A stretch of 64,000 nt of DNA from Verrucomicrobiaceae bacterium. GTDB taxonomy: Bacteria > Verrucomicrobiota > Verrucomicrobiia > Verrucomicrobiales > Akkermansiaceae. A model generated the notes under the pieces. The model had not been told where the DNA came from. It made no database searches and saw only the letters and a list, made by a program, of their open reading frames with translations. How positions within the stretch are numbered: position 1 is the first letter of the stretch; every line of letters begins with the position of its first letter. The stretch spans positions 1-64,000 of the forward strand of contig JAIXQH010000035.1 of the NCBI GenBank assembly GCA_027484055.1, in the 5' to 3' direction. Shown one piece after another: positions 1,478 through 39,566 of this stretch. The position numbers and the translations under genes were made by a program.

Positions 1478-1495
1478 ATGGCCTGATCAGGCCAT
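1478..1495 (+). promoter_or_regulatory. Palindromic operator-like site 1
   Basis: This is a perfect 18-bp palindrome, ATGGCCTGATCAGGCCAT, preceded by an A-run and ending 95 bp before the ATG at 1591. Near-identical elements occur at 9222, 22840, 25534, 32490 and 39549, each upstream of a gene start, so it is read as the binding site of a shared dimeric regulator. An upstream in-frame start at 1462 would place this site inside the gene, which is one reason to prefer 1591. Confidence 0.75.
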
Positions 1496-1590
1496 ACCCA
1501 AATCCGAACGTAACCAATATAACTTCAGCGTTCCAAGAATCGCTCCCGGCAAAAAATCCACTTAAAAAATCAATCCCATTACCCTCAATT

Positions 1591-3921
1591 ATGAAACCCC
1601 GTAATTCTCGCTACGTCACGTTGCTCCCAGTCTTTGCAGTCATCTCACTTTCTGCGCCATCACTCTTTGCCGCAACTGGCACTTGGAACGGTAATGTCGG
1701 TGGTGGGGACGGCTTTTGGGATGCTACCGCCAACACCGAGTGGACCGGTGTCACTGGCAATGCTTGGGATGCGACGAATGGCCCGAACAATATTGCCCAG
1801 TTCAACGCCGGAGCTGTTGGCGCTAATCCAGGTACTTCCGGGACGCCTGTTGCAAATGGAATCATCTGGAACAACACCAGCGGTGGCATTAGCTCAGGTA
1901 GCGTCAAACTGGACGGTACCAACCCATTCATCAACGTCACAACTTCCGGTTTGACTAGCCAGATGTTCGCAAACCTCACCGGCACCAACGGCTTCACCAA
2001 GACGGGTGCAGGGCAGTTTTTCCTAATTGATACGGTCAAGGGAATCACCGGTGGCATTACGGTCAATCAAGGCCTGCTTCGTCTGGATCTGTCCGCTGTT
2101 GCAACAGCTTCAGGAGTCGCAAATTCAAGCAACGCGCTTGCGCTCTCTGGTAGTACCCTCGAAGTGACAGGCAGAAATTACGTTGGCACTTCGTCTCAAA
2201 CCTTAAGCAACTTCACACTGAATACCGGAGGCAGCACCATTCGCATCAACCCCAACAGTGGTACCGGGACCACGCTATCTCTTGCAAATTGGACCAGAAC
2301 GTCAGGAACCAATTCAAGCTTGTTTGTGGATTCCTCCGTCACCGGGACCAAAACCCTTACATTGACGGGGACCTTGCCGACACTCTCGAATGGCATCATT
2401 GGTAGTTACGCGACTATTAGGGACAGCACAACCACTTTTGGCTTTGCCACTCTCGATGGTTCGAACAATGTGGTTCGCTACACGGCGGCCACTGTCGTTA
2501 GTTCTGCCCTCGGTGCTAATACTGTCAGTGGAACCAATTATCGAGCCACGAGCGCGGGGAACTTTTTCAACGGAAGCGGTACGGCCCAAAGTCTCAACAG
2601 TTTGGATATTGCGGTGGACGGCTCGGTCGGTGGTAATACTGCGGCGACCTATACCTTGGGTTCCGGTGGGCTTTTATATTCGCTTAACAGCACCTTCGCC
2701 AACCCCTCAGCAAACCTTAAACTCACTTCCTCGACTTCCGAATTACAAGTTTCATCGCTTAGTTATAACAATGGATTTGCTTCTAGCACCATTGGTAGCA
2801 GCGGCGGAATCTATGACAACGGTAGTGCAGTGAGCTTAGTCAAGGCCGGCCCGGGTGGCTTCAAAATGAGCAGCGGTACTTTCAGCTACACGGGCGATAC
2901 GATCGTTAATCAAGGTGTGCTTGATAACATCGCCAATATCCCGAGCGGATCCGGCAAAGGTAACCTTGTGGTGAATGCTCAGGGCATTGTCGCCCTTGGA
3001 CTGGGAGCGAGTGGAACCCGGACGATCAATGGATTGTCCAACACAACTGTGGGTGGCGGCACGGTCAACAACCAGAACTACACTTCAACAGCAGCCACGG
3101 CCTTTCTGAATCTGGGCAACAACAATGCTACCGCAAGCTTCTCCGGTGTGATGAGCGGCAATTTCAGCATCATCAAGAGCGGCACCGGCACGCAGACTCT
3201 GTCGGGTGTAAGCACTTATGCTGGCTCTACGGCGGTCAACGCGGGCATACTCAGCATCGCCTCCACCGGCAGGATCAACGGTACCAGTGCCATCACGATT
3301 GGCGCGGGTAATTTGAACTACAACTCCGCCACCGCACTTAGCCAAGGTGTCTCCTTCAACAGCACCGGCGGCACTCTCAGCGGAACGGGAACGATCACCC
3401 CGGCGGTTACGATCACGAGTGGTAACCTCCAAACAGCAGGTTCTTCGGTCACGGCAGCCAATACCACTGCCGCTCTTGGTAAGCAGATCTTCACCACCGG
3501 CATTACTTACAGCTCCGGATCAATCTTCGAGTGGAACTTGAATAGCACGGCGGTTGGCACCCGCGGCACCGACTACGATGCGATCAATACCGCATCTCTG
3601 GGCGGTTCAGGTGCCACCTTCCGAGTCATTCTGAATGGTTCCGAAAATTTCAGTGCTTCGTTCTGGGACACCGATCGCACTTGGGCAGGCATCTTCAAAA
3701 ACCTTGCTGAATCTACCTCGTCTGACATGTCAGCGATCTTCAGCAGCTTTGAATATCAGAACTCAGCTGGAACCGTTGCTGGTGTCACTGGCACTCAAGG
3801 TGCGTTCACATTCGTCAACAGCGGTCAGGATCTAAAATGGACCGCCGTTCCTGAGCCTACCAGTGCGCTTGCCGGTCTCTTGATCACCGCCGGTCTGCTG
3901 CGCCGCCGCCGCACGGCATGA
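1591..3921 (+). CDS. PEP-CTERM protein with autotransporter-type beta-strand repeats
   Basis: A 776-residue exported protein. Residues 1-27 form a signal peptide ending SAPSLFA. The body is Gly/Ser/Thr/Asn-rich with repeated motifs such as FTKTGAGQFFL, GGITVNQGLLRL and IIKSGTGTQTLSG, typical of autotransporter-associated beta-strand repeats that fold into a beta-helix. The last ~24 residues are a PEP-CTERM sorting signal: VPEPTSALAG, a hydrophobic stretch, then RRRR. In the known PEP-CTERM system the tail is cleaved by an exosortase and the protein is placed at the surface or in exopolysaccharide; no exosortase gene lies in this window. The start at 1591 is chosen because it begins the signal peptide and follows the operator-like site at 1478-1495. 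A hairpin follows at 3961. Confidence 0.88.
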   Translation: MKPRNSRYVTLLPVFAVISLSAPSLFAATGTWNGNVGGGDGFWDATANTEWTGVTGNAWDATNGPNNIAQFNAGAVGANPGTSGTPVANGIIWNNTSGGISSGSVKLDGTNPFINVTTSGLTSQMFANLTGTNGFTKTGAGQFFLIDTVKGITGGITVNQGLLRLDLSAVATASGVANSSNALALSGSTLEVTGRNYVGTSSQTLSNFTLNTGGSTIRINPNSGTGTTLSLANWTRTSGTNSSLFVDSSVTGTKTLTLTGTLPTLSNGIIGSYATIRDSTTTFGFATLDGSNNVVRYTAATVVSSALGANTVSGTNYRATSAGNFFNGSGTAQSLNSLDIAVDGSVGGNTAATYTLGSGGLLYSLNSTFANPSANLKLTSSTSELQVSSLSYNNGFASSTIGSSGGIYDNGSAVSLVKAGPGGFKMSSGTFSYTGDTIVNQGVLDNIANIPSGSGKGNLVVNAQGIVALGLGASGTRTINGLSNTTVGGGTVNNQNYTSTAATAFLNLGNNNATASFSGVMSGNFSIIKSGTGTQTLSGVSTYAGSTAVNAGILSIASTGRINGTSAITIGAGNLNYNSATALSQGVSFNSTGGTLSGTGTITPAVTITSGNLQTAGSSVTAANTTAALGKQIFTTGITYSSGSIFEWNLNSTAVGTRGTDYDAINTASLGGSGATFRVILNGSENFSASFWDTDRTWAGIFKNLAESTSSDMSAIFSSFEYQNSAGTVAGVTGTQGAFTFVNSGQDLKWTAVPEPTSALAGLLITAGLLRRRRTA

Positions 3922-3960
3922 AGATTTTCCGGGGTTAATGGGTTTTCTCCGGAACTAGAG

Positions 3961-3992
3961 CGGGGTTGCTAACTGGAGGGTTGGCAACCCCG
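3961..3992 (+). terminator. Hairpin after the PEP-CTERM gene
   Basis: Nine-base perfect arms CGGGGTTGC (3961-3969) and GCAACCCCG (3984-3992) enclose a 14-base loop and are followed by ATTCTTT, a weak T-tract. It begins 40 bp after the stop codon and 20 bp before the next start, consistent with an intrinsic terminator between the two genes. Confidence 0.6.
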
Positions 3993-4011
3993 CGATTCTT
4001 TAGAATAGAAA

Positions 4012-5004
4012 ATGAATCAGTCCGCCTTGATCGCCAGCATTCTTTTCGTGTCCTCATTTTTGATCTTTCAGGAGGCGGACGCACTTCCTGAAATCGCCAG
4101 CAGGGGACTTGAAAAACACCCGTTTCTATGCACCGGGGAATGGGACACACGCCACCCCGAGGCACAGTCCATTTTCTTAGTGCAAGATGGCAAGGTGGCT
4201 TGGACATACTCCATTCCCCTGTATCTCTGTCCTTTTGCGATTCAGGAATTCTCGGATGTGAACATGCTATCAAATGGCAACATCCTGTTCGCTTGCATGT
4301 CAGGGGCTGGAATCATTTCGCCAGAAAAGAATCTGATCTGGGAGTTCCGCTGCCCGTATGGCACCGAGACGCACTCGTGCAAACCCATCGCGAAGGACAT
4401 CGTGCTGCTGGCCTTGAACGGCAAGGTGGGCAAGGTCATGGTCATCAACACAGCGACTAACACGATACTAAAGGAACTCATCATCCCGACGGAGTCAACC
4501 TTCGCGCACTATCAATTCCGGCATGTGACCATCACACCGGGGAAGAAGACATTCATGGTCGGGTTGCTGGGCGAAAAGAAAGTCCTTGAAATGGACTTCG
4601 ACGGCAAGGTGGTCTGGTCATGCAACGCCTCTTCTGCCTGGTCCGTCATCCGATTGGAAAATGGCAACACCCTCATTTCAGGAGACAGCGAGGGCTATAC
4701 GAGAGAAGTGAATGGCAAAGGAGAGACGGTATGGGAGTTTACCCAGAAGAACGCCCCGTTCAAACTGTACAACACCCAAACTGCCAACCGACTGACGAAT
4801 GGAAATACGGTCATTTGCAACTGGGTGGCGGGGGTGAAGAATACCGAGGAATGGAAGTCGACCGTTCAAGCATTCGAAGTCACTCCGGATAAGACGGTGG
4901 TTTGGGCCTTGTCGGCATGGGACAAGCCGGATCTCGGTCCTTGCACCTGCATTCAACTGCTCGACGAACCAAGGAATTCCGATGAAGGCCAGTGGCCGCG
5001 ATGA
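4012..5004 (+). CDS. Exported beta-propeller protein (PQQ/arylsulfotransferase-like repeats)
   Basis: A 330-residue protein with an N-terminal signal peptide (hydrophobic residues 5-19, then EADA). The remainder shows propeller-like blades, each with a pattern such as D-G-K-V-V-W or L-x-N-G-N-T-L-I (GKVAWTY, LSNGNILFAC, DFDGKVVWSC, LENGNTLISGDSEG, RLTNGNTVICNW). This resembles PQQ-like and arylsulfotransferase-type propellers. The function cannot be assigned: a carbohydrate-related periplasmic binding or catalytic role is inferred only from its position before a GH28 gene on the same strand, 143 bp apart. It might be cotranscribed with that gene. Confidence 0.8.
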   Translation: MNQSALIASILFVSSFLIFQEADALPEIASRGLEKHPFLCTGEWDTRHPEAQSIFLVQDGKVAWTYSIPLYLCPFAIQEFSDVNMLSNGNILFACMSGAGIISPEKNLIWEFRCPYGTETHSCKPIAKDIVLLALNGKVGKVMVINTATNTILKELIIPTESTFAHYQFRHVTITPGKKTFMVGLLGEKKVLEMDFDGKVVWSCNASSAWSVIRLENGNTLISGDSEGYTREVNGKGETVWEFTQKNAPFKLYNTQTANRLTNGNTVICNWVAGVKNTEEWKSTVQAFEVTPDKTVVWALSAWDKPDLGPCTCIQLLDEPRNSDEGQWPR

Positions 5005-5147
5005 ATCAATGATACGGACATTTCAGCAGAGATTCGCTTTCTATCTAACCATGCGAAATAACTGCGTTTGACGCATCACTATTCCATGTTCCCAGCACAT
5101 CATGGATCCCGCAGCATGTCCGAACGGATTCACCACAATTCCTCTCC

Positions 5148-6629
5148 ATGAAATCTCTTGTCATCCTTGCGCTCTTGACTTGCCACGCCATCGCCCTTGG
5201 TGAAGAAGCGGTTGGATGGGAGAACCCGTTGCGGGAAAAACTCACGAAAATGGCTGCTGACCTGACAGCGAATCTCAAGCCGTGGAACGTGCCCAGCCGC
5301 CGCTTTGAAGTGGAGAGCCACTTTGCCGTAGCAGATGGTGTCACCGTCAACACGACCGCCATCCAAAAGACGATTGATGAGTGTTCCGCCGCTGGCGGTG
5401 GCGTGGTTCTTTTTTCCAAAGGTGCCTATGTGACCGGAACTCTCTTGCTGAAATCCGGAGTCATGTTGGAGATTTGCGAAAACTCTAGCATCCTTGGCAG
5501 CACGGATCTCGTGGACTACCCGGATCACATCGCTTCCAGACAAACGGTGATGGACACCCACATGAAGGTGAAACAGTCGCTCATTCATGCAGAAGGAGTC
5601 GAGCGTGTCGGACTCCGGGGACCGGGGAGGATCAATTTCCGAGGCGAGAAATCCAACTTCCCGGGCAAACAAACCATTGGCGAAACTCCTGGCCGGCCTT
5701 TCGGAATGAGGTTAATCGATTCGAAAAAAATCGTCGTCGAAAACATTACGCTCACGAACTCCGCGTGCTGGATGCAGAATTACCTGAATTGTGAGGATCT
5801 GATATTTCATAAGATGACGGTTAACAATCACGCGAACTATAACAACGATGGTATCGACATAGACGGCTGCCGTCGCGTGATCCTCCGCGACTGCAAGATC
5901 AACTCGGAAGACGACGCCTTTTGCCTCAAGGGTGCCAGCCTTCGCCCGACCGAGGATCTGCTCGTCGAAAATTCCACATTTTATAGCACCTGCAACGCTT
6001 TCAAAATCGGGACAGATACCCAGGGCGACTTCCGCCGTATTTTTATCCGTAACCTCAAGCTTGGTGGTATTCCCAAAGAAATGGAAAGCTCGGCGGGTCA
6101 TCAGGCCAGTTCCGGCATCACACTCGCCACTGTCGATGGAGGCACGGTGGAAGATATCCTGATTTCCGACGCGGTCATCGAAGGTGCAAGGTGCCCAGTT
6201 TTTTTGCGCGTCGGAAGTCGGGGCCGTCTGATGCCGGGGATGCCTGCGGCACCCATTGGTCTGCTCCGGCGAATCTTGATAGAGAATATATCCGGCATCG
6301 GCAACCTCCGGCAGGGTTCGTTCATATCCGGAATCAAGCACGGAACCATCGAGGATGTGGTGATTCGAAACTACAAGGTGGGCATGGAGGGCGGAGGCAC
6401 CAGCGAGATGATGCAGGCTTCGGTAGCAGAAAGCGAAAAGGGCTATCCCGACGCTCACCAATTCAGCGTCAAAGGTCTTCCTGCGTTCGGTTTCTATATC
6501 CGCCACGCCCGACGAATTGACTTTCATGACGCGAAAATCGTCTCTGCCGCGTCCGATGCGCGACCAGCCTTCGTGTTGGGTGCCGGGGCCCAAGACGTGC
6601 GTCTTGACAACCGCTTACTTTCGAAGTGA
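5148..6629 (+). CDS. GH28-family polygalacturonase-like enzyme
   Basis: A 493-residue secreted right-handed beta-helix protein with a signal peptide (residues 1-18, ending AIALG). GH28 enzymes hydrolyse galacturonan or rhamnogalacturonan backbones using three Asp residues. Two motifs are visible: N233-D234 in YNNDGIDIDGC, and the pair D255-D256 in SEDDAFCLKG. The region where canonical members carry GHG and RIK instead reads STCNAFKIGTDTQGDFR, so the enzyme belongs to a divergent clade and its exact linkage cannot be stated. The length is normal for bacterial GH28. It ends 6 bp from the end of the convergent dehydrogenase gene. No operator-like site lies upstream. Confidence 0.85.
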   Translation: MKSLVILALLTCHAIALGEEAVGWENPLREKLTKMAADLTANLKPWNVPSRRFEVESHFAVADGVTVNTTAIQKTIDECSAAGGGVVLFSKGAYVTGTLLLKSGVMLEICENSSILGSTDLVDYPDHIASRQTVMDTHMKVKQSLIHAEGVERVGLRGPGRINFRGEKSNFPGKQTIGETPGRPFGMRLIDSKKIVVENITLTNSACWMQNYLNCEDLIFHKMTVNNHANYNNDGIDIDGCRRVILRDCKINSEDDAFCLKGASLRPTEDLLVENSTFYSTCNAFKIGTDTQGDFRRIFIRNLKLGGIPKEMESSAGHQASSGITLATVDGGTVEDILISDAVIEGARCPVFLRVGSRGRLMPGMPAAPIGLLRRILIENISGIGNLRQGSFISGIKHGTIEDVVIRNYKVGMEGGGTSEMMQASVAESEKGYPDAHQFSVKGLPAFGFYIRHARRIDFHDAKIVSAASDARPAFVLGAGAQDVRLDNRLLSK

Positions 6630-6639
6630 GTCCACTCAC
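6626..6639. terminator. Small palindromic hairpin between convergent genes
   Basis: GTGAGT and ACTCAC (6-bp arms, 2-base loop) span the stops of the two convergent genes ending at 6629 and 6636. It could work in both directions but has no T-tract, so a terminator role is tentative. Confidence 0.3.
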
Positions 6640-8936
6640 GGATCTCTAGATGGCGTCTGTTGGATCCACTCCTTCAGAAGTACGACCGCCTTTTGATCGA
6701 TTTCTATCGAGCCGAATGGTGGCATGCGGGTAAAGCCGTTGGTGGTGGCAATCCGGTTGTGGATGATTGAGTGGACGGGATCACCCGGAACAATGAGTTT
6801 GTTCAAGGGATTGCCGCCGTTGTTGATCGCTTTGCCATTGATGAGTCCGGTTTGCTCAAGCGTGAGCTCCGGGCGCCCGTCCATGACGGCGTAAGGCACC
6901 ATGCCGCCCGCTTTGTGGCAGTAGGCGCAGTTCACCGCGAGGTAAGAGCGGACGCGGGCTTCGAGTGGAGCCTTGTTGTCATCCAGCGCGAAGTAGCGGG
7001 GGAGTTGACTCGGTGAAGGGGGGGGCTGACTGATGTAGTTCACGTTTTTAAGGAAGGTGAGTTGGTTGCCCGAGAAGCCGTTGAACTTAAAGTTACGATT
7101 GAGTTGGCGGGTGTCAAACGATAGCGCATATCCGGCCTGCGGTGAGTGGCAGGCCATGCACTCGGAGCGGCTCGGGACGTGCCAGCGCTGGGTGATAGGC
7201 GCGGCATCGACGGTGAGCTTGAGATCCATATCCGCGCCGCTGTCAGGCACCAGCGTGGCATCTGTCCCCGCGTCATTCCAGCGGTAGCTGACACCATAAA
7301 CGCCGGTAGAATTTTTTACTAACAATCGGGTTTCAAGGCGTTTCCTCGTCGCTGGCTTGCCCCGCTCGGTTTCCATGTCGAAGTGCTGCACCCAGATTTG
7401 GCCAGCAGGAAACTTCCACGAGCCATCGCCAGCTGGGGTCATTTTGTCGGAGGCATTCGGGATGATGAACCAGTTGCGGGTGATGGCGTGGTCGTTCCAA
7501 GAAGGGAGGTTGATCGTATAAGGAACCAGGCCGGGGGCAGGGGAGAGCTTGGTGATATCGGTGAAGAGGCCGGTCGCACTGAGCGTGGCTGGGAAACTGT
7601 TGGTGGCGGTATCGGTCGTAAGTCGGAGGATGCGATTGCCGTCGAAGTCGGCCATCAGTAGATCGCCATTCGATGGATCGGTTCCTAATGCGGCGATCCC
7701 CACCTCTCCTCCGATCCGGGTCACGGTCGGTGGTTGGCTTCCATTGCGGACCAGCGACCAGATGTGGCCGGAGACGAAGTCGGAAAAGATATAGGCACCG
7801 GTCAGGTTGGGAATCCTAGAACCACGATAGACGAGGCCGCCGGAAATCGACTTGCCGATGAAGTTAGAATCACCACCACTGTGCGTGTATTCGTAGAGGG
7901 GCTTCTGGTGATAGAGTACATCGAAATCGGCGGGTGCATCTTTCGCCTTGGGACCATCGTGATTTCCCTCGCGGAAGGCCCAACCGTAGTTGCCGCCCTT
8001 GGTGATAATGTCCACCTCCTCGTAGGTGTTGGATCCGACGTCACCGACCCAAAGTTCGTTGGTTTGGGAGTCAAAGCTGAAACGCCAGGGATTGCGCAGG
8101 CCTACCGCCCAGAACTCGGTGCGGACTTTCGTCGGGTCGATGGAAATGCCATTGAAACTCGTCGCACCGACGAAGGGGTTGTCCGCAGGAATCGAGAATC
8201 GCGCCACTCCGTCGTCCAGCGGGATCGCCGCGTGGGGATTAGGTACGAGACTACCGGTTTTTTTGTCCACATCGATACGGGCGATGCCAGAGAAGAAGTC
8301 TTTGGTGATGTTCTGGCTGTTGTTGTAATGATCATTCTGCCAGCCCTCGTCGCCGAAGGAAATGTAGAGGTAGCCGTCGGGCCCGAAGTGGAGATCGCCG
8401 CCATTGTGATTGTCTGCTTCATCCGCCTGCTGAAGGAGGACAAGTTCGGAGCCGCTATCAGCGAGAGCTGGATTTTTCGTCAGCGTGGTAAAACGCGATA
8501 CCCGCTCGTAAACCGTGCTGCCAATTTTAACCGAATAGAAGAGATAGAAATAGCGGTTCGTCTTGTAGTTCGGATGAAAGGCGATGCCTAGCAAGCCTTG
8601 CTCGCTGGAGGTACTGAGCGTCTCGTTGCGGGTTTTCAGCAGGGCTGGAAGATCAATGAAAGTGGATGTTGTTAGGGTGCTTGAGGCCACCTCAGGGATC
8701 AGGCGGACCAGCCCTCCACGATCACAAATGAAGAGCCGCCGCGTATCGCCGGGTGGGCTGGTCATGGCCACGGGTGAAGAAACTCCCGTGAAAGCCGTGA
8801 CCACCTGAAGGTCAAGTGCCGGCGGCGCGGAAGGAACGTTGAGGTTGGGATTTTCAACCCGAGGGGGCTGGGAGAGAGCGGTTGGTACCGACATCGTCCA
8901 CAGTCCTGATATGGCTAGAAGTGTTTTTGGGTTCAT
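6636..8936 (-). CDS. PQQ-type sugar dehydrogenase (GSDH family) fused to cytochrome c
   Basis: A 766-residue exported protein with a signal peptide at residues 1-22. Residues ~45-445 form a glucose/sorbosone dehydrogenase propeller with family motifs (EQGLLGIAFHP, NHNGGDLHFGPDGYLYISFGD, GLRNPWRFSFD, GGNYGW). Family members oxidise aldoses at C1 in the periplasm with PQQ. The C-terminal third has two haem-binding motifs, CMACH at ~593 and CAYCH at ~670, and a likely axial Met in FTRMPPFG at ~738, so electrons could pass straight to bound haem. Its start overlaps the stop of the 84-residue gene upstream by 4 bp (ATGA), implying translational coupling. The pair follows the operator-like site at 9222-9239. 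No PQQ biosynthesis genes are in the window. Confidence 0.87.
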   Translation of the reverse strand: MNPKTLLAISGLWTMSVPTALSQPPRVENPNLNVPSAPPALDLQVVTAFTGVSSPVAMTSPPGDTRRLFICDRGGLVRLIPEVASSTLTTSTFIDLPALLKTRNETLSTSSEQGLLGIAFHPNYKTNRYFYLFYSVKIGSTVYERVSRFTTLTKNPALADSGSELVLLQQADEADNHNGGDLHFGPDGYLYISFGDEGWQNDHYNNSQNITKDFFSGIARIDVDKKTGSLVPNPHAAIPLDDGVARFSIPADNPFVGATSFNGISIDPTKVRTEFWAVGLRNPWRFSFDSQTNELWVGDVGSNTYEEVDIITKGGNYGWAFREGNHDGPKAKDAPADFDVLYHQKPLYEYTHSGGDSNFIGKSISGGLVYRGSRIPNLTGAYIFSDFVSGHIWSLVRNGSQPPTVTRIGGEVGIAALGTDPSNGDLLMADFDGNRILRLTTDTATNSFPATLSATGLFTDITKLSPAPGLVPYTINLPSWNDHAITRNWFIIPNASDKMTPAGDGSWKFPAGQIWVQHFDMETERGKPATRKRLETRLLVKNSTGVYGVSYRWNDAGTDATLVPDSGADMDLKLTVDAAPITQRWHVPSRSECMACHSPQAGYALSFDTRQLNRNFKFNGFSGNQLTFLKNVNYISQPPPSPSQLPRYFALDDNKAPLEARVRSYLAVNCAYCHKAGGMVPYAVMDGRPELTLEQTGLINGKAINNGGNPLNKLIVPGDPVHSIIHNRIATTNGFTRMPPFGSIEIDQKAVVLLKEWIQQTPSRDP

Positions 8937-9187: not shown

Positions 9188-9221
9188 TGAGTGAGGCTGA
9201 CACGTTCTTGCGATTCTAGAT

Positions 9222-9239
9222 ATGGCCTGATCGGGCCAT
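9222..9239 (-). promoter_or_regulatory. Palindromic operator-like site 2
   Basis: ATGGCCTGATCGGGCCAT, an 18-bp near-palindrome with one mismatched pair, lies 34 bp upstream of the 84-residue gene. On the coding strand it continues into CATATC, a possible -10 box. It is the same element as at 1478 and five other places. Confidence 0.72.
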
Positions 9240-13182: not shown

Positions 13183-13205
13183 GAATGCTTCTTGTTATTT
13201 GTGTG

Positions 13206-14630
13206 TTAGTCCGCAGCTTTCATGGAGCCACGACCAGCGCGATAGCCATAGAGGCCGTAAAATGTGATGTAGGCAAAGGCGATCATCGGAATAATGAATG
13301 AGAGTTGGATGCCATATTTGTCCGCGATGAGGCCCTGCAAGGGAGGTAGCAATGCCCCACCCAAAATGGCCATCACCAACAAGGACGACGCCTGACTCTT
13401 CATGGGACCCAGTCCTTCGATCGCCAGCGAGAAGATGTTCGACCACATCACCGAACAAAACAGACCAATACCCAGGATGGCCCACTTTGCCGTCTCGCCG
13501 GATGTTATCATACCCGCGCCGAGCAGGCCGATAATGATAAGGCTGAACAATACCAACATGCGTTGCGCACTGGCCTGCCCGAGAAAAAATGCACCGAGCA
13601 GAAGAATGAGGGGCACGCCATAGTGGAGCGCCTCGTTCCAGTTGGTGAGCGTCCCGGCCACGAGGAAGGCGAGGCACGGCGTCGCAACCATGAGCGGGTT
13701 TTTGAAGCTGCGCTTCATGCTGCTCAGGGCAAAGGCTCCCATGAAGCGTCCGATCATAAGTCCACCCCAGAAAAATGCGAGATAGTGGGTCGCTGCTTGG
13801 TGGGTCAGGCCTCCCAGCTCCGGCAGCTCCATAAAATTGATCACCGCGCTGCCAACCGCCACCTCGCCACCGACATACATGAAAATCGCAAGCATCCCTA
13901 ACACCGTGTGAGGATGTTTCAATGCTCCTGCTCCGCGGGTGATCGCTTCCTCATTCGTGAAGTTGGGAATATGGGCGAATTTAAAAGCGATCGCCAACGT
14001 GACGAAAACACCTGCGAAACAGAGATAGGGAATTCTAACCGACTCGGCTCCGTGGAGATCACCACTACTGAAAACCTTGAAAATGAGCCAGCCTCCAATC
14101 AACGGGCCGATCGTCGTGCCCAGCGAATTGAAAGCCTGTGATAGATTCAGTCGGCTAGAAGCGGTCTCCTCAGGCCCCAGAATGGTCACATAGGGATTCG
14201 CGGTGATTTGCAACATGGTGAAACCAAGACCTACCACAAACAAAGCGATCAGGAAGAAGGGATAAGAACTCATCATCGCGGCCGGTACAAACATCGCGCT
14301 ACCCGCGGCGGCGATGAGCAGGCCTAGGATGACGCCGTTTTTATAACCGATCCGGTTGATCGGGTCACCGGAAACGATGGAGATCGCATAGTAGATCAAA
14401 GAGCCGACCGCATACGCGCCGAAGAACGCGAACTGGACCAGCATCGCCTGAAAATAGGTCAGCGTGAACGCTTCCTTGAAGCGCGGGATCAGGATGTCGT
14501 TCCATACGGTCATGAACCCCCACATGAAAAAGAGGACGGTCATGATGCTGAATGGCACCCGGTAGGATGGAGTGGTCGATGGTGACTGGGAACGTGTAGT
14601 TCCTGAATGATGTGGTGTTAGTGATGTCAT
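13206..14630 (-). CDS. FucP/GluP-type sugar:proton symporter (MFS)
   Basis: A 474-residue integral membrane protein with about 12 predicted helices. Family signatures are FFMWGFMTVWNDILIP in the first helix and the ANPYVTILGP segment followed by SRLNLSQAFNSLGTTIGP, as in the fucose/glucose-galactose permeases of the FHS family, which import monosaccharides with protons through the inner membrane. It lies 21 bp after the giant GH16 gene and 23 bp before a second GH16 gene, so it probably imports the sugar their products yield. That sugar might be glucose, galactose or fucose; the sequence alone does not decide. Confidence 0.88.
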   Translation of the reverse strand: MTSLTPHHSGTTRSQSPSTTPSYRVPFSIMTVLFFMWGFMTVWNDILIPRFKEAFTLTYFQAMLVQFAFFGAYAVGSLIYYAISIVSGDPINRIGYKNGVILGLLIAAAGSAMFVPAAMMSSYPFFLIALFVVGLGFTMLQITANPYVTILGPEETASSRLNLSQAFNSLGTTIGPLIGGWLIFKVFSSGDLHGAESVRIPYLCFAGVFVTLAIAFKFAHIPNFTNEEAITRGAGALKHPHTVLGMLAIFMYVGGEVAVGSAVINFMELPELGGLTHQAATHYLAFFWGGLMIGRFMGAFALSSMKRSFKNPLMVATPCLAFLVAGTLTNWNEALHYGVPLILLLGAFFLGQASAQRMLVLFSLIIIGLLGAGMITSGETAKWAILGIGLFCSVMWSNIFSLAIEGLGPMKSQASSLLVMAILGGALLPPLQGLIADKYGIQLSFIIPMIAFAYITFYGLYGYRAGRGSMKAAD

Positions 14631-14651
14631 GGTAAATTGGGATAGAACGAG

Positions 14652-25533: not shown

Positions 25534-25551
25534 ATGCCCCGAACGGGCCAT
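25534..25551 (-). promoter_or_regulatory. Palindromic operator-like site 4
   Basis: ATGCCCCGAACGGGCCAT is a variant of the shared 18-bp element, 122 bp upstream of the chosen GH16 start at 25411. On the coding strand it runs into CATACT, a plausible -10 box, as at the sites near 32490 and 39549. Confidence 0.68.
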
Positions 25552-32461: not shown

Positions 32462-32489
32462 ATCGTGCAGGGTCTGCGTGGTTTGGAGT

Positions 32490-32507
32490 ATGGCCTGATC
32501 GGGCCAT
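32490..32507 (-). promoter_or_regulatory. Palindromic operator-like site 5 with overlapping promoter
   Basis: ATGGCCTGATCGGGCCAT, identical to the site at 9222. On the coding (minus) strand it lies between a TCGACA -35-like box (32512-32517) and a CATACT -10-like box (32487-32492) separated by 19 bp, just before the MFS-to-DhaL operon. This position suits a regulator acting directly on RNA polymerase. Confidence 0.75.
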
Positions 32508-32578: not shown

Positions 32579-33673
32579 TCAGGGTTTCTTCGAGTCCGTG
32601 ATTTCGGAGAGGTAGTCGAAAAATGCCTTTTTCCGCTGAGAGCTGATTTCCCAATTGATCGGGGGTGATTGATAGCCTTGTTCAAGACTTTCTCCCTTGC
32701 GGCGGAAGTCAAACCAACCCCACGAGGCATGTGCCGCGACAGCAGAAGCAAAGTTGTTCTGCGCCTTGTCGAAGTTTTCGTGATCGTCCTCATTGAAGAG
32801 GATCGGCATGGGTTTGTATCCGGGGACGGCGCGGGTGAGTTCCACCATTTTCGTGATACGGACCGGGTCTTCTACGCTGTTCCCGTGAATCAAAAGGAAG
32901 TCCGAAGCCTTGACGACATTTTCTTCAGGGATGATTCCGCCGCCATAGCTGGTGCCAACTAGCAATCGGTGCCCATCGACTTCCTGCTTCTTGACTCGCT
33001 CTATCAATTCGTTCACGCGTTTCGGTTTCAGTATTGCGTGGTCGTAGGGGCCGTTGGTTTCATTGTTGATCTCGACCAAGACGTTTCGCCAGCCACCATC
33101 GAGGAGCCAGCGAGTTGTTTTATCAGTCGCTCGCAGAACTGCGGCCTCGTCCTTGAGGTGCTGGTCTTGGCCGAAATAGAAATAGCCCAGTATCACTGCC
33201 ATACCGAGGTTATCCGCAGCATCAAGCACTTGTATCATGCGTGCTGCGAAATCCGGTCGGAGGGAGCCATCCGAGTAGTAGGCACCTGTGATCCATGGTT
33301 GCCCGGCGGAATAGCCTTCTGGCGAACCGCCTTGGAAATTCAGCGAAACGGCTAACAAGCCATGCGCCTTCCACTTCGGCATCGCAGCGATGAACTCGCT
33401 CACATTGCGTTCGGCGTCCCACTTCTTCGTATCGGGATAAGCCCAACGCGGTGACGTTTCCTGATTGAGATCGTCGAAGGTGGCCTGAACCATCCGGGAG
33501 TTGAGAAGGAGGCCTTCGATGCGATGACCTTTCCACTGCCGACCTGCGTAGGTTGGTATGCCGTTGATGTGGAAATCTTCGCCGGAAATGGAGAGAATGG
33601 TTTTCCCTGCTCCAGCGGCCCAGGGCGGGTGGAGCCACAGAGCGAAAAAGGTGATGAACAATGTGTGTTTCAT
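32579..33673 (-). CDS. Secreted TIM-barrel glycoside hydrolase-like protein
   Basis: 364 residues with a signal peptide (~1-22, ending WAAGA). The order of elements fits a clan GH-A barrel: ISGEDFHINGIPTYAGRQWKG at the start, an acid/base candidate Glu after strand 4 in VEINNETNGPYDH, and a nucleophile candidate in PILFNEDDHEN after strand 7. I cannot assign a GH family; GH5-like members are closest in layout, but hydrolytic activity is inferred. It is 117 bp upstream of the MFS gene start, with the site-5 promoter between, and a degenerate copy of the shared operator lies 42 bp upstream of its own start, so it belongs to the same functional group. Confidence 0.72.
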   Translation of the reverse strand: MKHTLFITFFALWLHPPWAAGAGKTILSISGEDFHINGIPTYAGRQWKGHRIEGLLLNSRMVQATFDDLNQETSPRWAYPDTKKWDAERNVSEFIAAMPKWKAHGLLAVSLNFQGGSPEGYSAGQPWITGAYYSDGSLRPDFAARMIQVLDAADNLGMAVILGYFYFGQDQHLKDEAAVLRATDKTTRWLLDGGWRNVLVEINNETNGPYDHAILKPKRVNELIERVKKQEVDGHRLLVGTSYGGGIIPEENVVKASDFLLIHGNSVEDPVRITKMVELTRAVPGYKPMPILFNEDDHENFDKAQNNFASAVAAHASWGWFDFRRKGESLEQGYQSPPINWEISSQRKKAFFDYLSEITDSKKP

Positions 33674-33715
33674 GGATCTGGTATGGTTGAATGTATCCTA
33701 CTGGGTGCTTATAAA

Positions 33716-33733
33716 CATGGATCGATAAGGCCG
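33716..33733 (-). promoter_or_regulatory. Degenerate copy of the operator-like element (site 7)
   Basis: ATGGATCGATAAGGCCGT matches 12 of 18 positions of the consensus and keeps the ATGG start and GGCC half. It lies 42 bp upstream of the TIM-barrel hydrolase gene, the same placement as the strong sites. On the coding strand TTTATAAG follows, a possible -10 region. Confidence 0.4.
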
Positions 33734-33929
33734 TTTTTTAGTCAAAGTTTCACTTGGCCACGGTTGTGGATCGGGTCGCTTGGGATTTCATGTTAATTTT
33801 GACGCAGCGATCGGAGTGCGGCGGCAGTTTGGCAGTCTATGAGCGAGGGGAGCCGTTGCTGTTTTCAAGCAGTAATTGGGCAGTGGAGTCCTGTAATTCT
33901 CAGCAGTGATGGTGTCCAGATGGGCGTAG

Positions 33930-35111
33930 TCAGGATTCTCGTAACGTGAGGCCAAAGCCCGGTTTGGACGACACATGCATCTTTCCGTCTCGTATCGTGT
34001 TCTCGCCAAAATCGACATGTTCGTGAATACAGGTCACGCCTTCGACGCTTGCGCCATTACCAAGCCCGGCGAGAAGTTGGGCTGCGTAAACGGTTTTGAG
34101 GCCGGAGCCCCAGGCATGCGGAGAGGAAAGGGTCCGGGTTTTGACGAGCTTGGGCATCAGTTCTCGCCAGCGGGTGAATCCGTGGCTGATGATGTCAAGC
34201 AGGCGGACGTTGAGAATCCCATCGGCTTCGAGTTTTTCGAGGATGGGGATGTCATTGTGCTGTTCGCCGTCGGCGAGAAGCATTTTTTCGAGGCCGTTCG
34301 TCGATGTCCATGCATGGACCTCGCGCCATGCAGCATCGGTTTCAACGAAAGGTTCCTCCAACCAGAACAACGGAATGCCCTCGATGCCTTTGAGAAATGC
34401 GATTGTTGTTGCCACAGAGTATCCGTCGTTGGCATCTACTAACAATTCACAATCCGGAAATGCCTTGGCAATGGCCTGCGTGACTTCGATGTCGCGTTTC
34501 AATCCAGCCTCGGGCGTCATCCATCTGTTGCCACGTCCGATTTTGACCTTCAACTGACGATAGCCCAGATCGCGGTCCTGGGCGCAGTTTGCGAGCACTT
34601 GGTCGATTCCGGCCGGTTTCTCCATTGGTTCAAGTTCATCGAAATAAATCATGCCGGAGTAGATGGGAAACAGATGCGGTTTTTCCGCTCCGAGCATTTG
34701 CCAAACCGGTTGATCAAGGATAACACCTGCGAGATCGTGTAGTGGAATATCAATCGGCCACAGCTCCGAACTAAGAATGCCAGACGCGGGATTCATGAGT
34801 TCGGCGACCGTCTTGCCGACTGCCAACGAGCGCAACTCTTCGGGAGTCTTTTGTGCATCTGGGATTTCTCCCCAGCCGACCGCGCCTTGGTCAGTCTTGA
34901 GAACGACAGCCCAAACCGTCGGGCCCCGGCCATGGACGTCGAGCTTCGCGTTTTTTCCGACTAGGCGCGGCCATGGAAGGGGGACCTGCTTGATTTCTAG
35001 CGATGTAATGCGGTGCTTCGTCAGAGGACCGGATGTTTCCGAAGCCCTTCCAATGAGTGGGTAGACAGCTGCTGATGAGGCGGTGAGGGAGAGGAAATGG
35101 CGACGGTTCAT
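33930..35111 (-). CDS. Tat-exported enolase-superfamily (mandelate racemase-like) protein
   Basis: 393 residues. The N-terminus is a twin-arginine signal (NRRHFLSLT followed by a hydrophobic stretch), so the protein should be exported folded. The capping domain is followed by a barrel with superfamily positions visible: KVKIG (KxK after strand 2), LLVDANDGY (first metal Asp), WLEEPF (Glu), LADGEQHND (third acidic position) and SPHAWGSG (a His-bearing strand-7/8 loop). Members abstract the alpha proton of a carboxylate, racemising or dehydrating sugar acids. Periplasmic export is unusual for this superfamily. It follows the 235-residue unknown gene with a 107-bp gap containing an inverted repeat. 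Confidence 0.82.
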   Translation of the reverse strand: MNRRHFLSLTASSAAVYPLIGRASETSGPLTKHRITSLEIKQVPLPWPRLVGKNAKLDVHGRGPTVWAVVLKTDQGAVGWGEIPDAQKTPEELRSLAVGKTVAELMNPASGILSSELWPIDIPLHDLAGVILDQPVWQMLGAEKPHLFPIYSGMIYFDELEPMEKPAGIDQVLANCAQDRDLGYRQLKVKIGRGNRWMTPEAGLKRDIEVTQAIAKAFPDCELLVDANDGYSVATTIAFLKGIEGIPLFWLEEPFVETDAAWREVHAWTSTNGLEKMLLADGEQHNDIPILEKLEADGILNVRLLDIISHGFTRWRELMPKLVKTRTLSSPHAWGSGLKTVYAAQLLAGLGNGASVEGVTCIHEHVDFGENTIRDGKMHVSSKPGFGLTLRES

Positions 35112-35158
35112 ATTTGATGGTTAGAGTGGCCCGTACCTTGTTTTGTATGCCCGTTGAT

Positions 35159-35177
35159 GCCTGATGAGGTATCAGGC
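35159..35177 (-). repeat. Inverted repeat made of operator-like half-sites
   Basis: GCCTGAT and ATCAGGC with a 5-base spacer lie 47 bp upstream of the enolase-superfamily start. The arms equal the GCCTGAT/ATCAGGC core of the shared palindromes but are pushed apart. No T-tract follows on the minus strand, so it is either an attenuator-like hairpin or a spaced binding site. Confidence 0.4.
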
Positions 35178-35218
35178 GAAAAAGGCATAGGTGTGAGAAT
35201 CGGGTGTCGATGTGATCG

Positions 35219-35926
35219 TTACGGCGTGGAGGATTCCGGGATCACCGCTTGGAAGAACTTGCGGACTTCGAGGCGTCCCTCACCCCGAGGACTGGGATAC
35301 ACGAATACGGTGGCACGCCGTGCGTCTCGGTGGCCCCATTGGGAAGAATAGGCGATTTCTTTTCCGATGCCGATGTAGAGCGCGATATCGCGGACGGGTT
35401 CACCAGTGGGGGAGGTGATGAGCGAGAGATGATTGGACTCGATGGGGGGATAAAACGTTTTGTCGATGGCGACTTGGATCGGAGTTTGGGTCAGGTTGAA
35501 GAAACGATAGGCTCCGGGTGGAAAATTTTTGAGCGAGTTATCGAACACTCTCACTTGCCACTTGTCAGGATTGTTCGGGATGGCGGTGAAAAGAAGCAGC
35601 ACGGAGCCACCGTTTTTCGGAAGCTTTGCGATGGCCGCTGGCGGCGGCCGCTTTTCAGGTGAAAGGGCAAGTGCTGCCTTTCCCTTGTAAAAGACGATGT
35701 CGGTCGGGCCGCTGTATTCGGTGGGCATGGTAAAACCGCTTTCGTAAACATCGAGGTTCTGCGGTTCCTCGGTGCCTTGAAACCATAGATCCTTGATGTT
35801 TCCTTCCCAACTCAAGGTGATGATTTCGGCTTTGATCGTTTCCGGAACTTGAGCGCGGGTAAGGCCTTGCATCACTGCGCAGAGCAGGAGGAAATAAGTT
35901 GTCTTCAAGAGGTTGGAGCGGATCAT
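35219..35926 (-). CDS. Exported protein of unknown function, partner of the Verru_Chthon A-like gene
   Basis: 235 residues with a signal peptide (~1-25, ending GLTRAQ) and no membrane segment after it. The mature part is probably beta-rich, with EPQNLDVYESGFTMPTEYSG, FFNLTQTPIQVAID and a final VYPSPRGEGRLEVRKFFQ. I do not recognise the family. Its start lies 4 bp after the stop of the A-like protein, so the two are almost certainly cotranscribed and may form a complex in the periplasm or at the outer membrane. Confidence 0.72.
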   Translation of the reverse strand: MIRSNLLKTTYFLLLCAVMQGLTRAQVPETIKAEIITLSWEGNIKDLWFQGTEEPQNLDVYESGFTMPTEYSGPTDIVFYKGKAALALSPEKRPPPAAIAKLPKNGGSVLLLFTAIPNNPDKWQVRVFDNSLKNFPPGAYRFFNLTQTPIQVAIDKTFYPPIESNHLSLITSPTGEPVRDIALYIGIGKEIAYSSQWGHRDARRATVFVYPSPRGEGRLEVRKFFQAVIPESSTP

Positions 35927-35930
35927 GGAT

Positions 35931-38900
35931 TCAGATTTCGTTAGGGCTCAGCCAGCGGAAGGAAATGATCTCGAACTTGCGACCGAATGTGATTCCTGGC
36001 TTGTCGAGTGTGGTATCGGTCGCGGATGATGCGGAATCGGGTTTGTCTTTTGTTAACAGGGGCTTCGGGGTGCGTTGGATCACGGCCTCGCACCAGGCCT
36101 TCGCGGTGGTTTTTCCGCTTTTATCGACAGCGCTGCCGTAAGTGCGGATTACGAAGGTGTCCGAGCGCACAGTTATCACTGGTGCAAGAGCCTGGAGAAT
36201 GTCTCCTTGCAGAAGGAAGCCAGCATTGCCCGCAGCTTGGCTTTGACCAGCGGTGATCTTTTGAAAATCACCATTCAGGTCGTCGGTTGTCTGCGCTGTA
36301 GTCGAGGGAATAGCGGCATTGATTTTGGTTTTTTGGGAATCAAGCGCTGCTTGCAGGGCTCCGCTTTCCTTGATGTCACGCTCGGTAGTAATCGCGGCAT
36401 TTTTCTTGTCCGTTAAAGAACGGTTCACGAACGCCCCAATACTGCGGAACGGGCCTCTTGCACGCACCTGATTGACAATCTCGATGGCGAGATTGTCGAG
36501 CTGTGTCTCCGTGAGAGCGAAATAGCCTTTCCAAAAATCATCCTTCTCGCCGGGAATTCGACTGAAGCGAGGGAATGAAACGCCTCCCGAATTTTTCCAT
36601 ACGGTACTGCTATTTGTTGCACCGTTGAAGGTTGGTAAATCAATGTCTGCCATTCCGGCGAGAACCGCCCGCCATGCTTTGACGGAGGTTGAATTGACGT
36701 TGAATGCGCCTTCCACCGCGAGTTTTCCTGCCAGCTCACTGGTGACAAGGTCGTCGGCTGGATTGATATAGAAGGATTTGGGTTTTCCGGGTTCCAGCAA
36801 AGTGATGCGGGAATTTGGAGCGGGTTTTTCTCCCTTGGCGATCTTGGTGAAGGTGGCATCGGGGAGGTCCGAGGCAAGTGGCGATAGGCCAGAAAGAAAA
36901 TACTTGTCCCAGATGGCGTCGTTGATGATGTATGAGCTGTCGTGAACAGTTAGCTGGTCGGTGCCGGTCAGGAACGTGGTGTTGATATCTTTGTTGAGAG
37001 GAATACGGGGATTTGCATAGGAATTCCCGAGAATGTAGCTGGGTTCATAGTTGTAGCGTCCCAGCGTGGCGTGCTGAAAATGTCCCAGCGAGAGTGGACG
37101 CGAGCTTGGTACATCGAAGGCCACGACGTGGCTTTGCTTGAGATTTCCGCCTAACATATTGTAGCGGCTACCCGCCGATTCAGGCTCACCCGTGCCAGTC
37201 ACCTTACCGCGTCCATTTGGTCCGTCTCCGACGAAAGGGCTGATACAGGTCATGCCCTTTCCTTCAATCGAGCCATCCCACCGTGAATTTGCGACCATGC
37301 AGCGGACGTTCGAGTCGATCAGATTGCGAATTCGCTGCGGCGGTTGACCGATCCGGCTACCTTCGACGGTCGAACGCAGGCTGAACGACCAAGTAGCAAT
37401 GGTTTGTGGCGAAATATTCAGGGCCTCTGCGGATAATGGTGGGAGATCGTCAATTGACTCCGGTGTCATGTTCGATACCCCAGGTTGCCAGAGGTTAGTG
37501 GTGCGGAAATTGGAAACGATTGCCTGATCCCGATCCGCGACTCCTGGTTTCAAGGCGATGTAGTTTCCGGCGGTTGTTTTATCAGTATAACCCTTGTTTG
37601 AGGTTCCTTCGGACAAATAGACCTTGTTCACCTTCACGCTGGCGGTTTTGGCAAAAGTCCATGGCACAAAAGTTTTGTTAACGTCGCTACCAGGTGCGGG
37701 TAGGATCATCCGCATGACATTCGGTTCGCCCCACCGCGGTTCGAAAAACAAAGTAAGACCCGAGTTTCTATCTTGATAGGTGGTCTTCGGTCTCAGATCC
37801 CTCCGATTCATGGTGGAAAACATCCGAAATTCGCCGGGCTGGAAATCGATGGGCTGTCTGATGACCACGTTCAGGGTCTCTCCTTGTGAGACGCCGTTGT
37901 CCAGAGTCGTATTGCCATACCAATCTGTTAGCTTTGTCACAGCGGTGTTACCAGCAATGGTAATATCGAACACGGGGGACATCTCCCAGTCGATGCGGTA
38001 GACGGTGGGTCTTATAGTGACATTGTAGGGATTCCAAAGACCAATAAGCGGTTTGAATTCAACCACGGCCCGGTATCTTCCTTCGGGATCACCGGGGACC
38101 GGCTCGGTAGTGAGGCGGTAACCCATCTGCGCCCTTGCCAGCATGGGAGCGACAACAAAATTGGTGTGTTGGGCATCTGTGTTAATCGGCCAGGAGGGAT
38201 CGCTGAAATTCTGGTAAGGGTTCCACTCGTTTCTAACTACAGGGGCGTTGTTGCTTGCAGGATAGGGGAAGATGTTTTCTAGGCTGCCATTTGTATTGGA
38301 TTTGTAAGATTGGTAATAAAAACGCAGATTTCCAAAGTTGGGGCCGGTTAATTTTTTTACCCCATCTTTGAGGTATTCGTATCGCTTTGTAATGAAAAAT
38401 TGTTCCGGGGCGTCAGCGAGGTTATAACCTGCGAGTGGGACAGTGGCTTTTTTTCTGTAGTCGCCAAATTCCCGCATGATTTCACTGATGTTGCCATCGA
38501 TGGTTTCGACAATCGGTTTGAGTCCGAACCATTTCTGGAAGACCACTTCATCCTCGAATGCCTGGGTGAGGTCGCGCTTTAAGCCGCCGTTTTTTGCATC
38601 GGTTAGGAGCCCGCGACTGTAGGGGGTAAGCGAATGGAAGTAGGATTCGGCGAACTTGGTGGTCTTGGGCGCGACGAGCTGGCCTTGGGCAAGTGTAATG
38701 GCCATCTTGGCATTTTTGTTGTCCACTGGCCAGTTGGTTTTCAGATCGCTGGAGGCGTAGCGGGGAGAGTTGCTCTGTGAGATTGCGGCAGCAAGTTTCT
38801 GATCGGCGTTGGCTTCACCCGGGGCGTAGGGATTTGAGGTGTTGAAGCGGGCTTTGACACCCTCATCGGCCACCCAGTAGGCGTAGGATCCTGCGGTGGA

Positions 38901-39428
38901 GCCGTTGACTTGGACGAGCGGCGCACGGACTTGGTCAATGGGGGTGAGGTTGCTGCCGAAGAGGGCGACCGAATCTTTGTCAGGGAGCTTTGTTTGGGGA
39001 CTGAAATAGGAATCTGGCATGGAAGCCGGCATGGTTTCCAAGTCAACGGGGGACTGTTCATTGCCGCTGACCAGAAAGGCTGGTTCACCACCACGCGAGT
39101 TCCAGACAGCGGTCCACATGGGGTTTGGACTGGTGGCACTCAGCAGATCGGCACAGCCGGTAACACGCTGATCGCCCCCGGCGTGTTTTTGGAGTTCGGC
39201 TGCGGCGATCATCAGCGCCATGCGGGCGTTGGCGCGAGCGATCGAACTGTTTGACTCGCTGGAACTACTGCGGAGGGCAATCGAGCTTAACGAGAGCAGG
39301 CCCACGGCGATGACGGTGAGGAGAATCATCAGCGAAAGTGTCACGATCAGCGCGAAGCCCCTCTTGTGGTGCTTGGTGGTGGCGCGACTCATTGGACGGG
39401 TATTGGCAGAAAATGTCTTGGGTTTCAT
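35931..39428 (-). CDS. Verru_Chthon cassette protein A-like pseudopilin-type protein
   Basis: 1165 residues. After a basic leader (KHHKRGFALI) comes a single hydrophobic helix (~24-50), a layout shared by PilX/GspK-like minor pseudopilins and by the A protein of the Verru_Chthon cassette. The rest is a large beta-rich extracytoplasmic domain with many Asn/Ser/Pro residues and no catalytic motif that I can see. The cassette (proteins A, B, C, D, all with prepilin-like N-termini) is known from Verrucomicrobium and Chthoniobacter; its function is unknown. Here A is 10 kb from the B, C, D-like genes at 49-51.6 kb. The operator-like site at 39549 lies 120 bp upstream, tying A to the glycan regulon. 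Confidence 0.75.
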   Translation of the reverse strand: MKPKTFSANTRPMSRATTKHHKRGFALIVTLSLMILLTVIAVGLLSLSSIALRSSSSESNSSIARANARMALMIAAAELQKHAGGDQRVTGCADLLSATSPNPMWTAVWNSRGGEPAFLVSGNEQSPVDLETMPASMPDSYFSPQTKLPDKDSVALFGSNLTPIDQVRAPLVQVNGSTAGSYAYWVADEGVKARFNTSNPYAPGEANADQKLAAAISQSNSPRYASSDLKTNWPVDNKNAKMAITLAQGQLVAPKTTKFAESYFHSLTPYSRGLLTDAKNGGLKRDLTQAFEDEVVFQKWFGLKPIVETIDGNISEIMREFGDYRKKATVPLAGYNLADAPEQFFITKRYEYLKDGVKKLTGPNFGNLRFYYQSYKSNTNGSLENIFPYPASNNAPVVRNEWNPYQNFSDPSWPINTDAQHTNFVVAPMLARAQMGYRLTTEPVPGDPEGRYRAVVEFKPLIGLWNPYNVTIRPTVYRIDWEMSPVFDITIAGNTAVTKLTDWYGNTTLDNGVSQGETLNVVIRQPIDFQPGEFRMFSTMNRRDLRPKTTYQDRNSGLTLFFEPRWGEPNVMRMILPAPGSDVNKTFVPWTFAKTASVKVNKVYLSEGTSNKGYTDKTTAGNYIALKPGVADRDQAIVSNFRTTNLWQPGVSNMTPESIDDLPPLSAEALNISPQTIATWSFSLRSTVEGSRIGQPPQRIRNLIDSNVRCMVANSRWDGSIEGKGMTCISPFVGDGPNGRGKVTGTGEPESAGSRYNMLGGNLKQSHVVAFDVPSSRPLSLGHFQHATLGRYNYEPSYILGNSYANPRIPLNKDINTTFLTGTDQLTVHDSSYIINDAIWDKYFLSGLSPLASDLPDATFTKIAKGEKPAPNSRITLLEPGKPKSFYINPADDLVTSELAGKLAVEGAFNVNSTSVKAWRAVLAGMADIDLPTFNGATNSSTVWKNSGGVSFPRFSRIPGEKDDFWKGYFALTETQLDNLAIEIVNQVRARGPFRSIGAFVNRSLTDKKNAAITTERDIKESGALQAALDSQKTKINAAIPSTTAQTTDDLNGDFQKITAGQSQAAGNAGFLLQGDILQALAPVITVRSDTFVIRTYGSAVDKSGKTTAKAWCEAVIQRTPKPLLTKDKPDSASSATDTTLDKPGITFGRKFEIISFRWLSPNEI

Positions 39429-39548
39429 GGGCTTCGCTGTTCTAGAAGGCTCTTGATTGTGAAGCTAATTAGGAAAGTTGGACATGATAGGTTAAAGATG
39501 CAAATGCACTATGTATTTACATATTACAGCCTCTGGACGATTTCGAGT

Positions 39549-39566
39549 ATGGCCTAAACGGGCCAT
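39549..39566 (-). promoter_or_regulatory. Palindromic operator-like site 6 inside a promoter
   Basis: ATGGCCTAAACGGGCCAT. On the minus strand it fills the spacer between GTGACA (39569-39574, five of six matches to the -35 consensus) and CATACT (39546-39551, -10-like) with a 17-bp gap, giving the clearest promoter-operator overlap in the window. It serves the Verru_Chthon A-like operon. Confidence 0.75.

Follow-up and report, generated by a model that had tools for sequence, protein, structure and literature searches.

Copies of the palindrome and the genes behind them

This study examined an 18-bp palindrome that recurs in the first 64,000 nucleotides (the window) of contig C43 from a 4.4-Mb Verrucomicrobiaceae genome (G000), where it stands upstream of several transcription units, and compared it with that of a relative from the same genus (G036). 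The site searches combined patterns allowing mismatches, namely the exact half-site pattern ATGGCC-N6-GGCCAT and, in later searches, a refined pattern, with the scoring of fetched stretches by a matrix trained on 22 sites, which themselves score 31-50 by construction. Gene starts in G000 are crude calls, and membership of a transcription unit was assigned from strand and spacing alone. The palindromes, the -10-like steps, and the predicted target units (GH, glycoside hydrolase family) in the window are as follows.

1478-1495, plus strand: palindrome ATGGCCTGATCAGGCCAT, before the unit at 1591-6629; pairs with G036 C88:11656 (18 of 18 letters)
1518-1519, plus strand: -10-like TA step, index +40/+41 counted from the first base of the palindrome
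1591-6629, plus strand: PATR-repeat protein, Mala_s_1-like protein, and GH28; a unit by strand and spacing
6636-8894, minus strand: glucose/sorbosone dehydrogenase with a sub-cutoff cytochrome c match
9198-9199, minus strand: CA replacing TA at index +40/+41, read from the site listing
9222-9239, minus strand: palindrome, before 6636-8894, 327 bp from the called start; pairs with G036 C88:22077 (18 of 18 letters)
10489-22700, minus strand: large GH16/PKD protein, MFS protein (gluP-like), and GH16
22816-22817, minus strand: -10-like TA step, from the site listing
22840-22857, minus strand: palindrome, before the unit 22700-10489; pairs with G036 C88:35825 (16 of 18 letters)
22946-25345, minus strand: GH16 protein
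25534-25551, minus strand: palindrome with one change, before 25345-22946; CG at +40/+41, neither TA nor CA; the corresponding G036 stretch falls beyond a contig end
26843-32329, minus strand: MFS protein, Asp/Glu racemase-like protein, RpiB/LacAB, unknown protein of 349 amino acids, cupin, DhaK, and DhaL
32466-32467, minus strand: CA replacing TA at index +40/+41, read from the site listing
32490-32507, minus strand: palindrome, before the unit 32329-26843; paired with G036 C375:3692 (15 of 18 letters)
32579-39428, minus strand: 1165-amino-acid protein, 235-amino-acid protein, enolase-superfamily protein, and 364-amino-acid protein
33717-33734, minus strand: weak copy from an earlier note, doubtful (score 8.7)
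39525-39526, minus strand: -10-like TA step, from the site listing
39549-39566, minus strand: palindrome, before the unit 39428-32579; pairs with G036 C2:6554 (15 of 18 letters)

An earlier note on this DNA had placed six strong copies in the window, and its coordinates were borne out: the copies at 1478, 9222, 22840, 32490, and 39549 are exact, and that at 25534 has one change. The note put the copies 28-139 bp upstream of start codons; the crude starts in the window give 95-327 bp from the palindrome end instead. Its statement that no copy lies inside a gene holds for the strong copies, which are located between called genes, with the site at 1478 included only after a start correction. This site falls within the 5' extension of an open frame; both the following ATG (1591) and the start called for the orthologue in G036 put it upstream of the gene. 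The described asymmetry of the flanks was confirmed, A accounting for 56 of the 66 letters directly before the palindrome on the coding strand compared with T for 18 of 66 in the mirrored position. The claim that no GH28 gene has the site requires amendment, since the GH28 gene at 5148-6629 could be part of the 1478 unit; it is on the same strand, and the gaps are 90 and 143 bp. The loose count in the window is not striking by itself: with up to two mismatches, there were 8 matches where shuffled sequences averaged 3.6, and a count of 8 was reached in 6 of 100 shuffles.

Further predicted targets are located on a second contig of the same locus, C34. GH3 with GH16 follows one site; another group comprises a PATR protein, an apiosidase, two GH39 proteins, a GH42-like protein, and a 3-keto-disaccharide hydrolase; and a third comprises GH106, GH43, GH106, GH42, a histidine kinase, and a response regulator. 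A degenerate site at C34:8248, before a GH120-like gene, pairs with G036 C293:40058 (12 of 18 letters). A PEP-CTERM protein follows a site in G036 (C88:10543).

Two of the window units deserve comment. The 1165-amino-acid protein has weak N-terminal matches to Verru_Chthon A and GspK, both far below cut-off, and its Verru_Chthon A-like label corresponds to 28.1 bits against a family cut-off of 332.3; the literature search found no paper naming Verru_Chthon. The RpiB-like protein of the unit at 26843-32329 matches a D-erythrulose-4-phosphate isomerase model with 129.5 bits (cut-off 240), and the unit, with its MFS, racemase-like, DhaK, and DhaL proteins, resembles a tetrulose or apionate breakdown route. 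An apiosidase-like gene (C34:15153-16508) lies in the same locus as this unit.

Confinement to one locus

The exact pattern was found at eight places in the whole genome, five in C43 and three in C34 (5199, 19173, and 32200), and the reversed pattern, used as the control, at none. These eight places sit in approximately 1.6% of the genome (p about 5e-15 under random placement). Allowing one mismatch added 16 places, against one for the reversed pattern; 15 of them are outside the locus, and only 25534 is inside. The reversed pattern is a lenient control, since the palindrome letters are commoner than their reverse, and counts in other genomes are the better yardstick. Among 145 relatives, 50 have a match, and more than three matches occur only in G000 (8) and G036 (13). 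For the refined pattern, with up to one mismatch, 9 of 9 places in G000 are within the locus and 17 of 17 in G036 are on contigs that align with it; the pattern itself occurs in three of 386 genomes of the order (7 in G000, 12 in G036, and 1 in G186).

Both contigs carry sites near their first base, and the G036 contig C88 bridges the gap between them. The alignments of C34 (beginning at base 114) and C43 (beginning at base 117) run in opposite directions and both extend up to C88:6604, and the starts of the two contigs each match a piece of a single G036 gene. Because the two contigs align head-to-head up to C88:6604, we read them as one locus, which by this alignment is approximately 72 kb long, the first 40 kb of C43 lying head-to-head with the first 32 kb of C34. 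The gene at the junction is apparently split across C34:1-389 and window 1-579 and is whole in G036 (549 amino acids).

The 17 places in G036 all fall in C2, C88, C213, C293, and C375 (104 kb in total), which align largely with the G000 locus; most of C213 has no counterpart there. That part of C213 (L055:448-7412) encodes an XRE-cupin regulator, a weak GH88-like match, and SDR, xylose-isomerase-like, and GFO/IDH proteins. In ten orthologous pairs of G000 and G036 sites, which were chosen by the analyst, 163 of 180 site letters are identical compared with 1603 of 2530 flanking letters.

Matrix scores were obtained for places beyond the training set. Non-training places score 45.7, 36.2, 32.8, 29.9, 28.9, 22.0, and 18.3, with a maximum of 6.3 in the reversed control. 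Four places score low: C34:24587 (9.9), C34:1400 (9.4), window 33717 (8.7), and window 59317 (8.3); among them, only C34:1400 is backed by an orthologous site. The seventh copy of the earlier note, a weaker one given as 33716 and actually located at 33717-33734, is thus doubtful, because two unrelated-looking places score similarly (9.9 and 8.3). Allowing the refined pattern up to three mismatches yielded, beyond the locus, 26 separate places for G000 and 22 for G036; 23 and 17 of these, respectively, were scored, and the best reached 16.1. In total, 75 stretches were scored, two places twice, with a best score of 17.7 (L026, another genome). The single exact refined pattern in G186 (C201:1039, L143) scores 12.6 and has neither the A flank nor TA.

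Two side observations concern these outlying matches. The forward-strand matches with up to three mismatches outnumber the reversed ones about twofold in G000 (21 vs. 10), and in G036 the numbers are 17 and 21. In G186, the palindrome translates to MARTGH, in frame with what resembles a LuxR-type helix-turn-helix sequence.

A short palindrome in multiple copies might be a dispersed repeat, an uptake sequence, or a modification site. We consider this the least probable explanation and rejected it, because the pattern searches contradict it, strong copies being limited to a single locus in G000 as well as in G036. Moreover, the flanks are oriented to the target gene, the distance to a promoter-like step is fixed, and the flanks diverge more than the site. 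Scatter of the copies at random or within genes across the genome, the outcome that would have spoken against the regulon proposed in the earlier note, was absent from the pattern searches, on which the genome-wide confinement rests. In these searches, the element is found upstream of several units and is not scattered. Locus confinement, intergenic copies, gene-oriented flanks, and conservation in a second species all favor the proposal; a regulon confined to one locus is well supported.

Anatomy of the site

An alignment of the 22 sites was made on the coding strand; 20 of them took their orientation from the closest called gene start and two from the flank. The consensus is approximately RAAA-ATGGCCYGWTCRGGCCAT-AYC, in which both an A-rich left flank and an AYC-like right flank are conserved. 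TA occurs at index 40-41 in 16 of the 22 sites, and, the palindrome edge apart, in no more than 3 of 22 at any other offset. This -10-like TA or CA step is placed 22 nt after the palindrome, and no TTGACA-like consensus was observed at the -35 place in the 22 aligned sites. If TA is taken as the start of the -10 element, the palindrome centre lies near -43.5 and its end over the -35 region. The fixed spacing strongly suggests an activator site that replaces the -35 box.

The same anatomy bears on the possibility that the element is an RNA hairpin or an intrinsic terminator, for the A-rich flank before the palindrome is a T-rich tail on the other strand, as in a short terminator. The palindrome, however, stands before the start of its target gene and not behind a gene of the strand on which it would terminate. 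Its half-site letters are nearly invariant, whereas pairing would be all that a terminator requires, and a transcript from the downstream -10-like step would not contain the palindrome. On these three grounds, we rejected the terminator reading as very improbable.

A candidate regulator within the locus

The earlier note placed the regulator outside the window, and this agrees with our findings: the best candidate is located in C34, in the same locus. The gene at C34:19215-19832 (minus strand) encodes a protein of 205 amino acids with a receiver domain (PF00072, 83.8 bits) and a LuxR-type (GerE) DNA-binding domain (PF00196, 61.1 bits), both above cut-off, which make it a NarL/FixJ-type response regulator. 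It adjoins a histidine kinase gene (C34:19829-21871), and HisKA_3 (PF07730) is present in the kinases of both G000 and G036. The two genes are on the same strand behind the site at C34:32200, after four glycoside hydrolase genes, and no site stands directly before either of them. A single-sequence structure prediction for the sensor part of the G036 kinase gave a mean predicted local distance difference test score of 33.7 and was dropped.

No other DNA-binding family was matched among the scanned genes of the G000 locus, where four short frames were left unscanned and six proteins matched no family; a cupin protein of 127 amino acids matches the AraC ligand-binding family and no DNA-binding one. 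The earlier note had proposed a search for a co-occurring regulator across related genomes. Among 142 genomes, a close orthologue of the regulator is found only in G036 (94% identity), the next best being 51%; the kinase is conserved in G036 at 86%. A scan of the genome_contigs set gave a single close match (94%) in addition to five distant ones. The genomes with the close orthologue are the same two that have more than three sites. These findings suggest that C34:19215-19832 is the probable regulator reading the palindrome.

Beyond the range of the palindrome, positions 39961-48511 of the window hold an arabinose unit, with an isomerase, an FGGY kinase, a class II aldolase, and an ABC transporter, and a divergent LacI gene. 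The LacI gene (47456-48511) was rejected as the regulator, the neighbouring arabinose operon having no strong site.

Sister systems

Sixteen related regulators were listed; the examination extended to 14 neighbourhoods, which contain 15 of the 16. In G004, a homologue of the regulator (45% identity) and a kinase (31-33% over 669-691 amino acids) lie beside the palindrome ATGACTC-N4-GAGTCAT, which occurs exactly at two places in 145 genomes, both within 7.2 kb of the G004 regulator. A third G004 site, with one mismatch, lies approximately 13 kb from the regulator on the other side. In G020, one copy with one mismatch lies by its regulator (45%), and one with two mismatches is in another contig. 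The three G004 and two G020 sites have two to four A in the four preceding letters and TA or CA at +40/41 or +41/42. Behind the G004 sites lie genes for a Verru_Chthon A-like protein (32-36% identity to that of the window, in pieces; 25.2 of 332.3 bits); for a protein whose PEP-CTERM match falls slightly short of the cut-off, with two GH78-type rhamnosidases after it; and for a large protein, with the kinase after it. Across the 14 neighbourhoods, five hold an ATG...CAT palindrome with at most one mismatched pair (six hits vs. one in the reversed control). The recognition-helix sequence is TVKHHVK where the half-site is ATGGCC and TAKNHTR where it is ATGACTC.

It is conceivable, at somewhat less than even confidence, that the genus carries paralogous kinase-regulator pairs, each embedded in one large polysaccharide locus, bound to it, and having its own 18-bp palindrome with an A-rich flank and a -10 offset. 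Half-site and recognition helix would have diverged together, which would yield insulated, locus-specific switches that also control genes for surface proteins (PEP-CTERM, PATR) and Verru_Chthon A-like genes.

Proposed mechanism

We consider it likely that the palindrome is the site of one dimeric activator that switches on the approximately 72-kb polysaccharide-degrading locus unit by unit, and that this activator is the NarL/FixJ-type regulator C34:19215-19832 acting with its HisKA_3 kinase. The kinase would sense a cue of the polymer and, to judge from its family, phosphorylate the regulator. A dimer of the regulator would then bind the 18-bp palindrome, centred near -43.5 over the missing -35 box, and would recruit RNA polymerase to the weak TA or CA -10 step. 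The kinase and the regulator, being behind C34:32200, may be under their own control.

An 18-bp palindrome suits many dimeric regulators. It could be the operator of a different one, unlinked or outside the locus, whether a LacI, GntR, CRP/FNR, or TetR protein or some other response regulator, and that protein could activate or repress. We judge this unlikely but of appreciable weight. G000 has 42 first-look candidates for response regulators alone, 22 of which were scored, so an unlinked regulator could read the palindrome, and a LacI gene is present in the window. The LacI gene, however, is located past the last site, the fixed offset to the -10-like step favors an activator, and the homologous regulator of G004 has its own adjacent palindrome with a like layout.

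Several observations, in addition to these 42 candidates, weigh against activation by the regulator in C34. Two of the 22 sites took their orientation from the flank rather than from a gene, and six of the 22 lack TA, four of those six having CA. The gaps within the kinase unit are 86-190 bp in G036 and 174-418 bp by the G000 calls, and co-transcription is therefore uncertain. Co-occurrence cannot single out the regulator, because the genes of the locus generally co-occur with the sites. The XRE-cupin regulator in G036 C213 is a further DNA-binding candidate with no counterpart in the G000 locus, the part of G000 that was searched for it. With respect to the sister systems, a fourth G004 place, with one mismatch, lies far elsewhere in the genome; only L126 and L137 of the 14 neighbourhoods combine the palindrome with the flank and the offset; the layout scan gave six hits in all against four in the reversed control; and the sister motif emerged from inspection rather than from a prediction. 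We nevertheless prefer activation by the NarL/FixJ-type pair.

If this holds, the whole locus is one co-ordinated programme, and one motif is enough to predict the set of genes that work jointly on a single polymer and to assign unknown proteins to it. The diverged regulators and their sites would likewise be a natural pair for reading the DNA-recognition code of NarL-type proteins.

Comparison with known systems

Among the papers listed by full-text searches, and judged by titles and the beginnings of abstracts, none describes a regulatory site that serves a polysaccharide locus in this phylum. Among the 25 of 118 NCBIfam matches listed for the candidate, none reaches its cut-off (the best is MadR, 119.8 of 300) and no DevR model is included; DevR is among its five best PDB sequence matches. 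OsdR and DevR (DosR) are response regulators of the same type as the candidate.

The consensus reported for OsdR is AGGGCCGATCGGCCCT, and OsdR bound probes with predicted sites (PMC5069765). This consensus and the palindrome studied here have in common GGCC arms and a central GATC. The palindrome differs in being 18 bp long, in having its GGCC arms one position farther out from the centre and a fixed AT at its outer ends, and in serving one polysaccharide locus. E. coli NarL and S. aureus VraR align with the candidate near full length over the receiver and the LuxR-type domain, the recognition helix included. NarL sites are paired heptamers and differ in sequence from the palindrome.

PMC1569441 ties the two-component pair PrsK/PrsR of Proteobacteria to an upstream motif of PEP-CTERM genes. 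Our system is similar in combining a two-component pair with an upstream DNA motif and a PEP-CTERM target (G036 C88:10543). PrsR is described there as sigma-54-interacting, with a -24/-12 motif, whereas the regulator studied here is of the NarL type with a -10-like step; no sigma-54 interaction domain was detected among the family matches of the 205-amino-acid protein.

Polysaccharide utilisation loci of Bacteroidetes employ hybrid two-component systems and extracytoplasmic function (ECF) sigma/anti-sigma regulators. As in those loci, the regulator is embedded in the locus that it would control; in contrast to them, the kinase and the NarL-type regulator are separate, and many palindrome-led units extend over approximately 72 kb. 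The system would be a two-component regulon of a known kind that is unusually large and bound to one locus.

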